The notes beneath the pieces are model-generated. The model did no database searches. It was not told where the DNA came from and saw only the letters and a list, made by a program, of their open reading frames with translations. From a virus: DNA of 22,204 bases. A program made the position numbers and the translations under genes. Positions 2,424 through 6,409 of the stretch are shown in pieces. Numbering within the stretch: the stretch's first letter is position 1; each line of letters begins with the position of its first letter. The stretch is from the IMG/VR virus record IMGVR_UViG_3300025086_000284, positions 1 to 22,204 of that record, one strand, 5' to 3'.

Positions 2424-3104
2424 ATGAGTTTGACAATAAAAAGTGAAGGTGACTTTGAAGCTTTGGCTGTGGGTCAGTATGAAGGGGTGTGTTATCGAAT
2501 AGTAGATATGGGTACAAGAGAAGAGGTCTACAAAGACAATCCACCAAAGAAAAGAACAACAGTGCAAATTACTTTTGAACTGCCAACAGAGAAAATGGAT
2601 GATGGCAGACCATTGAGTATTTCCAGAACTTACACACAAAGTTTGTTTGAGTCGAGTGCACTTAGAAAAGATTTAGTGTCTTGGAGGGGTAAGAACTTTA
2701 CTCCAGATGAAGAAGCTGGTTTCGACATTTCTAACCTACTGGGTAAGAACGCTCTAATAGAAGTAGCTCACACTGAGAATGGTAAAGCTAAAATAGCTGG
2801 CATCTTCAAACCAGATGGTGGTGTGCAAGAAACACCAACACATAATGAGCTGACAGCTTTTGATATGGATGTGTACTGTGATGAGTTTAATGGCAATAGC
2901 AGTGAGAAAACTAAAGCTATGTGTGATATTTTTGATACACTACCTGAGTGGCAACAAAAAGACATTGAAGATAGCTTTGAGTTAAAGGCAGCTAAGAAAG
3001 ATAGCAATGCCTCAGTAGAAGAAGCAGAAGTGGTAGAGGAAGAACCTAAAGGTCTAGCTGATTTTCAGGCAGATGCTGAGGGTGACGACAGCATACCCTT
3101 TTAA
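2424..3104 (+). CDS. Single-stranded DNA-binding-like protein with SSB-type acidic tail (DUF669-like)
   Basis: The 226-residue protein has a beta-rich N-terminal region (about residues 8-130) resembling, as I remember it, the DUF669 group of phage single-strand-binding proteins. The motif order is a short Gly-Tyr-containing strand, a long strand with TVQITFELP, then GRPLSISRTYT and a helix. A Glu-rich linker (residues 198-208) follows, and the last residues are EGDDSIPF, which closely match the conserved C-terminal tip of bacterial SSB (DDDIPF). In SSB that tip recruits partner proteins, and phage T7 gp2.5 also uses an acidic tail. It is the first gene of a rightward cassette, with a strong ribosome site AAGGAG seven bases upstream. 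The probable role is coating single-stranded DNA during replication and recombination, working with the exonuclease encoded downstream. The ssDNA-binding call is inference from tail and context. Confidence 0.65.
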   Translation: MSLTIKSEGDFEALAVGQYEGVCYRIVDMGTREEVYKDNPPKKRTTVQITFELPTEKMDDGRPLSISRTYTQSLFESSALRKDLVSWRGKNFTPDEEAGFDISNLLGKNALIEVAHTENGKAKIAGIFKPDGGVQETPTHNELTAFDMDVYCDEFNGNSSEKTKAMCDIFDTLPEWQQKDIEDSFELKAAKKDSNASVEEAEVVEEEPKGLADFQADAEGDDSIPF

Positions 3105-3447: not shown

Positions 3448-4159
3448 CTTAGAGTACGACATCTATAACTTACCATCTGCAATCATGATGGAACACAAGC
3501 TATCTACAGACACCATACAGACACTTAACACCTACTTAGACAAAGAACTGCAAGACCCTAACAGAAAGTCTCTCAGTGGCGATCTGGTAGGACAAATACA
3601 TCAAGGTGAGCAACTGTCTATGGATTTTGAATGTGACGAGCTCAAAGACTTTAGAGCTATGGTTGAGAACCTAGGGGTAGCTTATCTCAGACACTTTGTA
3701 GAACAGACAGGAACCATGATAAGACCTAAGCAAGTCGTGACAGATAAACTTTGGTCAGTTCACTCTTATGAGGGTGACTACAATCCAATCCACGACCACC
3801 TCACAGCTTCACCTATGGGTATTAGCTTTACCACTTGGACAAAAGTGCCAGAGCAGATAGGTAAGACAGCAGATGGAAAAGAAGTCGAGGATTACAATTT
3901 ATACAACTCATCTGGTGTGATAGATGGGTATATCAATTTCACATATGGTCTTAACCAGACTTCTGACCCAGAAAGGTTAAGACCTTCACAGTCTCGATAT
4001 GTGAAACCAGAGGAGGGTAAGTTGTTATTGTTTCCATCTTGGATGCAACATGCAGTTTACCCTTTCTTTGGTTCAGGAGAGAGAAGGACAGTAGCTGGCA
4101 ATATGAATTGCTTTGACGTAACAGAAGAACAAATGAAAGGAGCGAAAGATGGAGTTTAA
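3440..4159 (+). CDS. 2OG-Fe(II) oxygenase (first of two)
   Basis: The 239-residue protein resembles phage 2-oxoglutarate/iron-dependent dioxygenases of the TIGR02466-like type. The core has a YNPIHDH motif at 114-120 supplying the first iron ligands, and LFPSWMQHAVYPFFG at 197-211 supplying the distal His (H204). R215 or R216 (GERRTVAG) is placed to hold 2-oxoglutarate. Such enzymes hydroxylate or oxidise proteins, nucleic acids or small molecules; the substrate here is unknown. I place the start at TTG 3440, since AAGGA lies six bases upstream and it overlaps the DUF3310 gene; an ATG at 3485 has no ribosome site and would lose 15 residues. The next gene overlaps its end by 11 bases. It sits inside the replication cassette, which makes DNA or a replication protein worth considering as substrate, but that is speculation. 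Confidence 0.8.
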   Translation: MTSLEYDIYNLPSAIMMEHKLSTDTIQTLNTYLDKELQDPNRKSLSGDLVGQIHQGEQLSMDFECDELKDFRAMVENLGVAYLRHFVEQTGTMIRPKQVVTDKLWSVHSYEGDYNPIHDHLTASPMGISFTTWTKVPEQIGKTADGKEVEDYNLYNSSGVIDGYINFTYGLNQTSDPERLRPSQSRYVKPEEGKLLLFPSWMQHAVYPFFGSGERRTVAGNMNCFDVTEEQMKGAKDGV

Positions 4160-4922
4160 AGAAGGTTTATATGAAGACATACCCTATGAGCAGTATGACT
4201 CAATACCAGCATACAGGTCACACGATCTAACCAGTGTGATTAAGTGTCCATATACATGGAAGAACAAGAAAGGGTTAACGCCCTCTCCAGCTTTGCTGGA
4301 AGGCAGAGTGCAACACACAGTGTTCTTAGAACACCACAAGTTTGACGAGGAGTTTGTCATACAGCCCAACATAGACAGAAGAACCAAGGTAGGTAAGGCT
4401 GAGTATGAAGACTTCTTAGCTACTGTTGGTAACAGAACACCTATCAGCCAAGACCTGTACGATCTGTGCATGGAGAGAAGAGAGCTGGTCAAAGAATACA
4501 TACCTAAAGAAGACCACAAGGTCGAGTGCACATTGATGTTTACTTATCATGGACATCCATTCAAATGTAGGATGGATTGGTATGACAATGTAGATGTGTG
4601 GGATTTAAAGACTTGTAGAGATGCTTCTTTCAGAGGTTTCAAGCAAGCCATCAACGCTTTCAATTATCACATGCAAGCAGCTCTATATGTTGATGCCTGT
4701 AGGTCATTGGGTATGCCAGCTGGTAAGTTTAACTTCTTAGCACAAGAGAAGACTCATCCTTATCCTTATGTGGTTTATACCTTGTCTGATGAAGCTATGG
4801 AGTATGCTAGAGCTAAGAACCAACAGGCTTTGTCTTTGTTACTCAGATGTAAAGAAGAAGATAAGTTTGTGCCCTATGGCTTAGAAGGAACCCAAACCAT
4901 AGAGCTAGGAGACTTGTATTAG
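4149..4922 (+). CDS. PD-(D/E)XK exonuclease, DUF3799/RecE-like
   Basis: This 257-residue nuclease has the RecB-type core: GRVQHTVFLE (52-61) with the conserved His at 56, then Asp143 in CRMDWYD, the DLK triad element at 152-154 (VWDLKTC), and a QAALY motif at 176-180 matching the usual Gln-x3-Tyr. Its length fits stand-alone phage exonucleases related to the C-terminal nuclease of RecE. In that family the enzyme digests one strand of duplex DNA from ends and works with a single-strand-annealing protein. No RecT, Erf or Beta homologue is visible nearby; the SSB-like protein three genes upstream may be the partner, as in T7 (gp6 with gp2.5). A ribosome site AAAGGAG lies at 4136-4142 inside the previous gene. 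Its stop codon overlaps the stop of the convergent gene. Confidence 0.85.
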   Translation: MEFKEGLYEDIPYEQYDSIPAYRSHDLTSVIKCPYTWKNKKGLTPSPALLEGRVQHTVFLEHHKFDEEFVIQPNIDRRTKVGKAEYEDFLATVGNRTPISQDLYDLCMERRELVKEYIPKEDHKVECTLMFTYHGHPFKCRMDWYDNVDVWDLKTCRDASFRGFKQAINAFNYHMQAALYVDACRSLGMPAGKFNFLAQEKTHPYPYVVYTLSDEAMEYARAKNQQALSLLLRCKEEDKFVPYGLEGTQTIELGDLY

Positions 4923-5077
4923 TTACAGCTAGGCTTTAGTTCTTTGTAGTCTGGGTAGTGACCAGCACACACCATGTCAGTGTAATGCTGTTGAGCTAAG
5001 AGCTCATCTTGGTAATCCATAGCACCCACAAAGCCCAACATTACAAATATCAATATGGTTATAAACCAGCTTTTCAT
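4919..5077 (-). CDS. Small protein with N-terminal hydrophobic segment (52 aa)
   Basis: Residues 4-20 form a hydrophobic stretch after a short MKSW start, consistent with a signal anchor or uncleaved signal peptide. It is followed by a short polar part with two cysteines (about residues 38 and 51) and many aromatic and His residues (QQHYTDMVCAGHYPDYKELK). If exported, the two cysteines could pair in the periplasm. I have a vague memory of similar short proteins with a DYQDEL...MVxAGHxPDY pattern in other phages, but no function is known to me. I place the start at ATG 5077, with GGAG six bases upstream, rather than at a further-upstream codon without a ribosome site. Its stop overlaps that of the exonuclease gene on the other strand. 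It is the last gene of a three-gene leftward operon. Confidence 0.65.
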   Translation of the reverse strand: MKSWFITILIFVMLGFVGAMDYQDELLAQQHYTDMVCAGHYPDYKELKPSCN

Positions 5078-5116
5078 AATCTTCTCCAGTGAGAGGGGTG
5101 GCTTACGCCACCTCCT
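5075..5116 (-). repeat. Stop-in-loop hairpin/ribosome-site module, copy A
   Basis: Copy A of a 42-base direct repeat; 39 of 42 bases match copy B at 5397-5438. Read on the minus strand it holds the last codons of the upstream gene (GAG GTG GCG TAA), a hairpin GGTGGC-GTAA-GCCACC at 5097-5112 with the TAA stop inside the four-base loop, then the ribosome site GGAGAAGATT and the ATG of the next gene. The loop GUAA is of the stable GNRA class. No T-run follows, so it is not a standard terminator. Confidence 0.85.
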
Positions 5117-5399
5117 CTGTGTTGAACCTATCAAGATATGCTTTATGCTCCCCTTCTTCAAAAGAAGTTATAGCATCTTCGATTCTCCAAGTTATGAATG
5201 TCTTGGCATAGTCTAAGGTTGTATATTCGTACCTATCTCCATAAAGCTCTATGGGTCTAAAATTAGGTGTGTAAAAAGCATAATATTTTTTTCCTGTTCT
5301 GCCTTTTTCTTGTGGAATTATGTAATAACCTTTGTATTTGTAACCCCATTTGCCACCTACTGATGGTGCACCTATTTCTTTTATTAATTCTAATTTCAT
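5103..5399 (-). CDS. Unknown small protein (98 aa)
   Basis: I do not recognise this protein. It has a beta-rich first half with KYKGYYIIPQEKGRTGKKYY (about residues 20-40), then a short linker and a helix DYAKTFITWRIEDAITSFEEG, ending in EEVA. The order strand(s)-strand-helix with a YKG motif parallels the neighbouring 60-residue protein (YKGVEI, then a helix DAKTRIDRKL), so the two may be diverged copies. I place the start at ATG 5399 with GGAG six bases upstream. Both the stop codon (in the hairpin loop of copy A) and the ribosome site (in copy B) are supplied by the duplicated 42-base module. Confidence 0.7.
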   Translation of the reverse strand: MKLELIKEIGAPSVGGKWGYKYKGYYIIPQEKGRTGKKYYAFYTPNFRPIELYGDRYEYTTLDYAKTFITWRIEDAITSFEEGEHKAYLDRFNTEEVA

Positions 5400-5438
5400 A
5401 ATTTTCTCCAATAAGAGGGGTGGCTTACGCCACCTCCT
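5397..5438 (-). repeat. Stop-in-loop hairpin/ribosome-site module, copy B
   Basis: Copy B of the 42-base module, with the hairpin at 5419-5434 and the TAA stop at 5425-5427 in its GTAA loop. It joins the 60-residue gene to the 98-residue gene. Stem, loop, stop codon and the GGAG ribosome site are unchanged between copies; the three differing bases (offsets 7, 15 and 17 from the left end) all lie outside the stem-loop. Confidence 0.85.
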
Positions 5439-5607
5439 TTAGTTTTCTGTCAATTCTAGTTTTGGCATCTTTAAGTTTATGAGTAACATTTAATTTACCA
5501 TTTAGTCTGAAGTGATACATGCTGTTGTAGTAATCACTATCCATACTTAAAGGGGTTCTTACACATGTTATTTCGACACCTTTATACTCTCTATATACTC
5601 TTTTCAT
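5425..5607 (-). CDS. Unknown small protein (60 aa)
   Basis: First gene of a three-gene leftward operon. The product is basic, with an N-terminal strand-like YREYKGVEITCVRT, a central YYNSMYHFRLNG and a C-terminal helix LKDAKTRIDRKLKEVA. This resembles many short phage proteins that pair a small beta-sheet with one helix; none has a function that I can name. A clear ribosome site (GGAG at 5612-5615) precedes the ATG. An extended -10 promoter lies about 33 bases upstream. The last codons and stop lie inside repeat copy B. Confidence 0.7.
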   Translation of the reverse strand: MKRVYREYKGVEITCVRTPLSMDSDYYNSMYHFRLNGKLNVTHKLKDAKTRIDRKLKEVA

Positions 5608-5639: not shown

Positions 5640-5667
5640 ATAATAACATATGTGTACAAATGTGCAA
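5640..5667 (-). promoter_or_regulatory. Extended -10 promoter for the small-gene operon
   Basis: On the minus strand the -10 is TATTAT (5640-5645) preceded by TGT (5646-5648), an extended -10 motif. A -35-like TTGCAC lies at 5662-5667, with 16 bases between. Transcription would start near 5632, giving a leader of about 25 bases with a good ribosome site before the ATG at 5607. This is the best promoter match I see in the window. Confidence 0.55.
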
Positions 5668-5678
5668 GTATTTGCACA
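5661..5678. promoter_or_regulatory. Operator-like perfect dyad over the -35 box
   Basis: TGTGCAA-GTAT-TTGCACA is a perfect 7-base inverted repeat with a 4-base centre. One arm contains the -35 of the leftward promoter, so a protein bound here would be expected to block RNA polymerase. It lies 17 bases beyond the 3' end of the oxygenase gene, which suggests a regulatory role rather than a coding one. The binding protein is unknown; the RHH-like protein at 6482 is one candidate. Confidence 0.45.
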
Positions 5679-5695
5679 AAGAAATATTAATTAAT

Positions 5696-6409
5696 TTAAG
5701 GTATAGATTCGTACAAATCTACTGACCTTTGCTTGTCGCATAACCAGAACACCAACAAGTAACGATCTCCACCTTGTACTGGCAGACCTCTGTGTAGGTT
5801 AGTAAAGCTAGGAAAGATTAGAGCGTGACCACTGGGCAAAGGATTGAGCACACCATGATTATGAAATTCAGTGCCACCTCCTTCATAGGAGCCAGTGTTC
5901 AAAGGAACAACCACACTGATCTCAGCACTCTCGTCATGATGCCATGCACCTTGCTTCTTATCTTTCAGGTTGTAGTTGGCTATCTGTATCGTGGTGGGGT
6001 CTTTACAGTCACGTTGCCATATAGCATTGAAGATTGGGTTGAGCACAGTTTGTGTGACAAACCACATGTTCCTGTACAGCTCAGGCACTTGCTCTCGCAA
6101 CACAATCTCAGGTATCTGTCTGAGCTCGTCTTCTGCATCGTTACCTACAAACCCTATTTCTTTCTTCATCAGCTCGATCTCTTTGACCAACAACTTACAG
6201 AAGTGTCTTCTAAACAAAGGTACTCTGTAAACATCAGGGAATATCTTTTTAACCACCTTATGTACAGGAGTTTTGCCCATGTTGTCCACACCATCTCCAG
6301 CTCTGTACTTAGCTATCAAAGGCAAAGTGTCTTGCACAGCGTTGTAAGTGGTTTGGTTGACCATCCAATGAGATTGCATACTTAGTAGGTAATTCTTCAA
6401 CTTATACAT
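5696..6409 (-). CDS. 2OG-Fe(II) oxygenase (second), prolyl-4-hydroxylase-like
   Basis: A protein of about 237 residues. The C-terminal half carries the double-stranded beta-helix signature: WHHDES gives the HxD iron ligands (H157, D159), followed by a GGGTEFHNHG turn. LPSGHALIFPSFTNLHRGLPV then gives the distal His (H206), and GGDRYLLVFW gives the 2-oxoglutarate Arg (R216). This arrangement is closer to prolyl-4-hydroxylase-type enzymes than to the first oxygenase in this window, so the two are not a recent duplication. The N-terminal third is helical and not recognised. The start is uncertain: ATG 6409 is chosen; ATG 6427, 6379 and 6364 are alternatives and none has a clear ribosome site. 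It is divergent from the RHH-like gene across a 72-base A/T-rich spacer. Substrate unknown. Confidence 0.8.
   Translation of the reverse strand: MYKLKNYLLSMQSHWMVNQTTYNAVQDTLPLIAKYRAGDGVDNMGKTPVHKVVKKIFPDVYRVPLFRRHFCKLLVKEIELMKKEIGFVGNDAEDELRQIPEIVLREQVPELYRNMWFVTQTVLNPIFNAIWQRDCKDPTTIQIANYNLKDKKQGAWHHDESAEISVVVPLNTGSYEGGGTEFHNHGVLNPLPSGHALIFPSFTNLHRGLPVQGGDRYLLVFWLCDKQRSVDLYESIP

Follow-up and report, generated by a model that had tools for sequence, protein, structure and literature searches.

A repeated joint with the stop codon in the loop of a hairpin links small genes in a group of uncultured phages

The window, by which we mean the whole 22,204-nt stretch of viral DNA that was analysed, contains a short array of small genes on the minus strand, between an exonuclease gene and a gene for a 2OG-Fe(II) oxygenase-like protein (Table 1). 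We refer to the array genes as A, B and Z. Searches of known families with genes A and B matched no family. Gene Z is the most constant gene of the array; it is present in 15 arrays and has homologues in Stenotrophomonas, Pseudomonas and Vibrio phages. Elsewhere in the window, positions 2424-3104 encode a phage replication initiation family NGO0469 protein whose tail, DDSIPF, is similar to the one on single-strand DNA-binding proteins.

Table 1. Features of the small-gene array and its flanks in the window
Feature	Positions	Strand	Description	Basis or remark
Exonuclease gene	4149..4922	+	PF12684; exonuclease VIII-like; converges on the array	Fixed flank
Gene Z (terminal)	4919..5077	-	52 aa; membrane-type small protein	phrog_6168 match, E 1e-13
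Shine-Dalgarno of gene Z	5082..5087	-	GGAGAA	Sequence
Hairpin 2	5097..5112	-	GGTGGC-GTAA-GCCACC, gene B stop in loop; outer AGAGG/CCTCT pairs, interrupted by a bulged A	
Gene B	5103..5399	-	98 aa; ends ..NTEEVA, stop	
Shine-Dalgarno of gene B	5404..5409	-	GGAGAA	Sequence
Hairpin 1	5419..5434	-	GGTGGC-GTAA-GCCACC, gene A stop in loop; outer AGG/CCT pairs, interrupted by a bulged A	
Gene A	5425..5607	-	60 aa; ends ..KLKEVA, stop	Four different next genes in relatives
Candidate array promoter	5640..5678	-	TTGCAC (5667-5662), 16-nt spacer, TATTAT (5645-5640)	Sequence and conservation
2OG-Fe(II) oxygenase-like gene	5696..6400	-	Upstream of the array	Fixed flank

An earlier note on this DNA had described two near-identical copies of a module linking three small genes, with TAA in a GTAA loop, and this was confirmed, on the minus strand. 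The joint copies occupy 5072-5116 and 5394-5438 and are 45 nt long and 93% identical (39/42 over the span first described). Each holds the hairpin 16-mer GGTGGCGTAAGCCACC (5112-5097 and 5434-5419, minus strand) and reads GGAGGTGGC-GTAA-GCCACC followed by CCTCTYAYT-GGAGAA-RATT-ATG, the ribosome site and start of the next gene. The TAA inside the loop is the stop of gene A (5427-5425) and of gene B (5105-5103), and both proteins end in EVA. All three mismatches between the copies lie outside the hairpin, as had been stated. At both joints the distance from the stop to the next start is 25 nt, with GGAGAA 4 nt ahead of the ATG. GGAG begins 15 nt past the stop and 9 nt past the hairpin, a little more than the distance of about 10 bases first described. 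Allowing up to 3 mismatches, the 16-mer had 5 matches in the window (four of these are the two sites read on both strands) versus 0.06 expected in shuffles, and the folding of the two joints compared with shuffles gave z = -3.1 and -3.7.

An 18-bp palindrome, TGTGCAAATACTTGCACA (5678-5661, minus strand), overlaps the -35 box of the candidate array promoter, and the arrangement of promoter and palindrome recurs in L007, L009 and L018 and in the distant L013. Since a simple promoter scan of the window did not flag the site at 5640-5678, this candidate rests on its conservation; the palindrome is a candidate operator for the whole cassette array. The same scan gave 3 sites in all, versus 3.5 expected. 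No minus-strand promoter-like site was found in the joints, the sole minus-strand match (5344-5317) lying inside gene B. A terminator scan of the coding strand flagged one of the two joints as terminator-like, with weak T content. We rejected an intrinsic terminator in the window, where the stem is followed by CCTCTTATTGG or CCTCTCACTGG and there is no proper U run. Because no clear U tract follows the window hairpins, transcription should continue past them.

A 23-base core of the joint was found in 11 IMG/VR contigs with differing flanking genes, in keeping with the expectation that in related phages this module would separate small genes that differ from phage to phage. The gene orders that follow a shared leader include A-B-Z (the window, L005 and L008), B-Z (L009), A-D-Z (L007), C-D-E-Z (L001), A-F-G-E-Z (L003), A-C (L006), K-M-D-Z (L018 and L020) and I-N-Z (L019). 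Only the last codons of gene K remain ahead of the joint in L011, apparently a deletion scar. The window and L007 have core proteins that are 98-100% identical, and their arrays differ. Within some 40 bases at the joint, ungapped identity drops from 95-100% to about 25%, or rises by as much; such steps were seen from both sides in comparisons of the window with L007, L006 and L004 and of L018 with L001. As read from these contigs, one and the same joint connects a variety of small genes, and it is at the joint that their order changes. The phages of this group, which are uncultured, are probably marine.

A sample chosen independently of the hairpin, by homology to the neighbouring exonuclease, comprised 80 loci, in which the array was taken to run from the exonuclease to the 2OG-oxygenase-like gene. 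The array region held 98 gene families across the 80 loci. Among 47 complete arrays there were 43 different orders, and 34 of the 47 families seen at least twice had more than one upstream neighbour. By these gene contents, the locus is a hypervariable array of small genes. The form of the joint varied with exonuclease identity to the window's phage. At 92% or more, the GGTGGC hairpin was present in 8 of 12 arrays and an overlap joint in none of the 12. At 69-78%, 22 of 39 arrays carried a hairpin-free overlap joint, GGAGGTRGYGTAATG (41 copies). At 63-68%, a second hairpin, GGCGGC-GTAA-GCCGTC, occurred in 6/12 arrays and the matching overlap GGAGGCGGCGTAATG in 2/12. The hairpin is absent from some array joints.

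In the overlap form the same 5' sequence is a Shine-Dalgarno in the last codons of the gene, and the stop overlaps the next start (TAATG). In relatives, (A)AGGAGGTGGCGTAA, which makes up the 5' half of the joint, forms a perfect Shine-Dalgarno within the gene's last codons; in the window's clade, the 3' arm (GCCACC) and a second ribosome site replace the start of the overlap form. Both forms can end related genes: the homologue of gene B in L013 (59% identity) terminates in the overlap joint GGAGGTGGCGTAATG. An overlap joint, AAGGAGGTGGYGTAATG, was found in at least 120 stretches, with at least 61 upstream and at least 77 downstream families. No Shine-Dalgarno/TAATG junctions were found outside arrays in the fetched parts of the sample contigs, and whole contig records do hold a few of them at other places. 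Two related contigs have overlap joints far from the exonuclease array (G010:C1:24249-24752 and G003:C1:21475), which suggests a second cassette site there.

Several observations bear on whether the hairpin is maintained as an RNA structure. Stop-in-loop stems numbered 17 at the stop codon versus 1-9 at other offsets, and GNRA-type loops 11 versus at most 1, figures in which a few of the joints listed, including those in the stop-offset scan, are probably there by chance. Among the matches listed for GGAGGTGGC-NNNN-GCCACC, the loop was GTAA in 26, and no other single loop occurred in more than 3. Over 31 distinct sites, 98.9% of cells were paired; U-A had become C-G in five, and the other paired changes were to G-U. 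The second hairpin, of distant relatives, carries the compensatory change of U-A to C-G. Homologous genes that are 34-72% identical have the same or a pair-preserving hairpin at their ends. The joints folded with z between -2.9 and -5.3, and the GGAGG in the 5' arm is predicted to be paired, the bulged A excepted. In L019 the hairpin is kept, and even lengthened, although the gene's real stop lies upstream of it. The proposal that structure and stop are conserved together was thus borne out in that the stem is conserved, with one compensatory change, and the stop-in-loop position is enriched over other offsets. Most copies have one and the same sequence, so that independent changes are few and the covariation test is a modest one; the covariation belongs to one or two clades and may reflect one or two events. 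A search of the window with Rfam covariance models gave no match above the gathering score. Since the enrichment of the stem falls precisely on the stop codon and its base pairs have been retained, the hairpin is probably an RNA element: the comparisons indicate that it, with its GNRA-type loop and the stop therein, has probably been kept as RNA structure.

The explanation that we favour, giving the whole of it about an even chance (roughly 0.5), is a constant joint in which the hairpin locks an orphan Shine-Dalgarno and the translation of neighbouring cassettes is separated. In the overlap form, the strong Shine-Dalgarno inside the upstream gene would directly serve the next gene. In the hairpin form, the Shine-Dalgarno-like sequence is almost fully paired by prediction, no start codon lies at the right distance from it, and a new ribosome site follows. 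The most likely function of the hairpin would be to hide the orphaned strong Shine-Dalgarno and so to separate the translation of adjoining cassettes. A ribosome ending the upstream gene would open the hairpin and slightly free the next ribosome site, after which the hairpin would refold; we infer this opening step tentatively, because the next ribosome site is predicted to become only modestly more accessible, and in one variant not at all. A constant and self-contained joint of this kind would make small genes interchangeable without harm to their neighbours, whatever recombination swaps them.

The main rival to the hairpin-lock reading is that the hairpin is chiefly an element of RNA stability or processing, which would shield the 3' end of each cassette's message from exonucleases or mark where cistrons are cut apart. 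A stable GNRA-type hairpin does end unrelated genes, the same hairpin with a T run is terminator-like in L042 (with further stop-in-loop terminators there and in two other stretches, described below), and the hairpin kept in L019 without a stop inside fits a role independent of termination. Against this, the window hairpins have no clear U tract after them, and a translating ribosome would cover the hairpin at every termination; we regard this as a serious possibility, if a somewhat unlikely one. That the EVA or EAA ending is instead a protein tag, a C-terminal degradation signal, appears very unlikely. Both endings look like hydrophobic degrons of C-termini, ssrA among them, and 24 EVV, 23 EVA and 9 EAA endings occur among 165 non-terminal array genes. 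However, the codons themselves are fixed (GAG GTG GCG), as is the non-coding 3' arm, changes of V to A are matched by a change in that arm, and EVV and EVA are equally common where the sequence is a ribosome site. A recent duplication within one phage, without constraint, would account for the 93% identity of the two window copies, but it is refuted by the occurrence of the module in 11 contigs between different genes, by the matching end in homologues only 34% identical, and by the kept stem pairs, and we give it practically no weight. The outcomes that the earlier note had set against its own idea, an unconserved stem and a match owed only to recent duplication of a whole gene, were neither of them found.

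The earlier note had also proposed the repeat as a recombination seam, an idea borne out only by half. Exchanges do fall at the joint: homology switches there, and 74 homology breakpoints lay within 30 nt of joints versus 21.6 expected, which looked strong. The control set of gene borders without a joint, however, was equally enriched (190 versus 56.6 expected), and hairpin-free arrays of relatives are as scrambled as hairpin arrays. Because the joint-free borders gave the same ratio, we rejected preferential recombination at joints and dropped the causal claim; on this comparison the joint accompanies exchange, and a causal role for it is unsupported. A recombination site proper, in which the repeat or its DNA hairpin recombines to swap cassettes, would find some encouragement in the exonuclease VIII-like gene that adjoins the array. 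It seems quite unlikely in view of these controls and of the recombinases found. No tyrosine-recombinase integrase (PF00589) was found in 15 related contigs, most of them fragments. A serine recombinase (PF00239) is present in 5 of the 15 relatives of the window's phage (e.g., G013:C1:28484-28984), and in the contig of L197 it sits among other genes, far from the array. An integron or other site-specific system is likewise unsupported, there being no tyrosine recombinase and a serine recombinase in 5/15 that is distant from the array where examined.

The array nevertheless invites comparison with known systems. Integron gene cassettes are arrayed small genes that lack promoters of their own, lie behind a single promoter and each carry a folded repeat at the 3' end; the present array is alike in having small genes behind one candidate promoter and a folded repeat at 3' ends, and differs in that no integrase was found and the joint is far smaller than attC. 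In the nin region of lambdoid phages, exchangeable small genes, many of them overlapping, follow one another in chains and have conserved borders, a likeness to our array at the level of description; we know of no stop-in-loop hairpin in nin boundary sequences. The closest known kinds are the PeSLs (promoter early stem-loops) of T4-type phages and the SAS/ESAS of mycobacteriophages, and the joint fails the defining features of both. PeSLs, as they are discussed in PMC4503421, are short conserved intergenic stem-loop cassettes, repeated between small genes, that carry promoters, and they have been linked with gene shuffling between close relatives (Arbiol et al. 2010, Comeau et al. 2014, as discussed there). 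Going by that discussion, both systems combine a repeated intergenic stem-loop cassette with shuffling of small genes between close relatives, but the window joints have no promoter and no convincing terminator tail, place the stop codon inside the loop, come from a different phage group and have a hairpin-free ribosome-site form in relatives. The SAS/ESAS of Cluster K mycobacteriophages are unusually conserved repeats that mark the ribosome sites of non-structural genes from different families; about half are preceded by an inverted repeat, and their function is unknown (PMC3203893). Microbacterium phages carry similar motifs (PMC7302621). Here too, genes from different families share a conserved motif at their ribosome sites. 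SAS, however, follows its inverted repeat in a non-coding gap, whereas here a strong ribosome-site sequence within the upstream gene belongs to the stem, the stop lies in the loop, and the consensus is another one; the 13-bp SAS consensus, GGGATAGGAGCCC, was absent from the window even when up to 2 mismatches were allowed. The limited literature searched yielded no account of joints between exchangeable genes that hold a stop codon in a GNRA-type loop.

A wider reading, which we put forward as speculative and consider unlikely, is that a general portable joint (stop, GNRA-type hairpin and ribosome-site sequence) interconverts between an open-overlap, coupled state and a hairpin-locked, separated state, and that with it phages assemble operons from exchangeable small genes without an integrase. 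Apart from this reading, the joint matters in that operons need intact stops, ribosome sites and spacing despite fast turnover of phage accessory genes, and one constant joint, with a probable RNA structure around the stop, carries all three; it is a concrete, testable answer to how small genes can come and go while their neighbours stay intact. Metagenomes could also be searched with the joint as a sequence tag for phage genes of unknown function that are exchangeable and probably early.

The 19-mer GGAGGTGGCGTAAGCCACC was found in 35 viral stretches, versus about 0.2 expected by our estimate for a collection of such size. It ends at least 10 unrelated gene families, always in frame as EVA and stop. 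Bacterial and archaeal genomes gave 2 exact matches in 257 Gb, both ending in EVA; as this is about the chance number, we rejected the hairpin element as a host feature. A DNA search of isolated phages with the array region gave no match, and a search of them with the 44-nt module gave weak matches, one of which, in Synechococcus phage S-CAM3, lies away from a gene end. Isolates with a DUF932-type domain do exist, as found with an L021 query whose first 20 or so residues are approximate; in one of them, Melnitz, the gene end lacks the hairpin. The cultured Variovorax phage VBv52 (PV558791.1 near 45,590; L391) carries GCGAGGCGGCGTAAGCCGCCCTCGC where a 317-codon frame ends, in a BLAST match that was not significant; the gene ends in EREAA and stop within a GGCGGC-GTAA-GCCGCC hairpin, with a ribosome site after it, and VBv52 is a possible laboratory model.

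L042, part of a 172-kb phage contig, has the same hairpin as the window followed by a T run, and this looks like a true terminator. Several intrinsic terminators in L042 differ in their stems and likewise enclose the stop codon in the loop, which suggests that the stop-in-loop arrangement arose more than once. Other stop-in-loop terminators were found in L252 and L254; from these three cases, such phages appear to use the arrangement for other purposes too. The L254 hairpin, ggaggcTTAGgcctcc, resembles a bidirectional terminator, and its four-base loop holds the stops, TAG/TAA, of both converging genes, whose ends are given as 4383 on the plus strand and 1186 on the minus strand.
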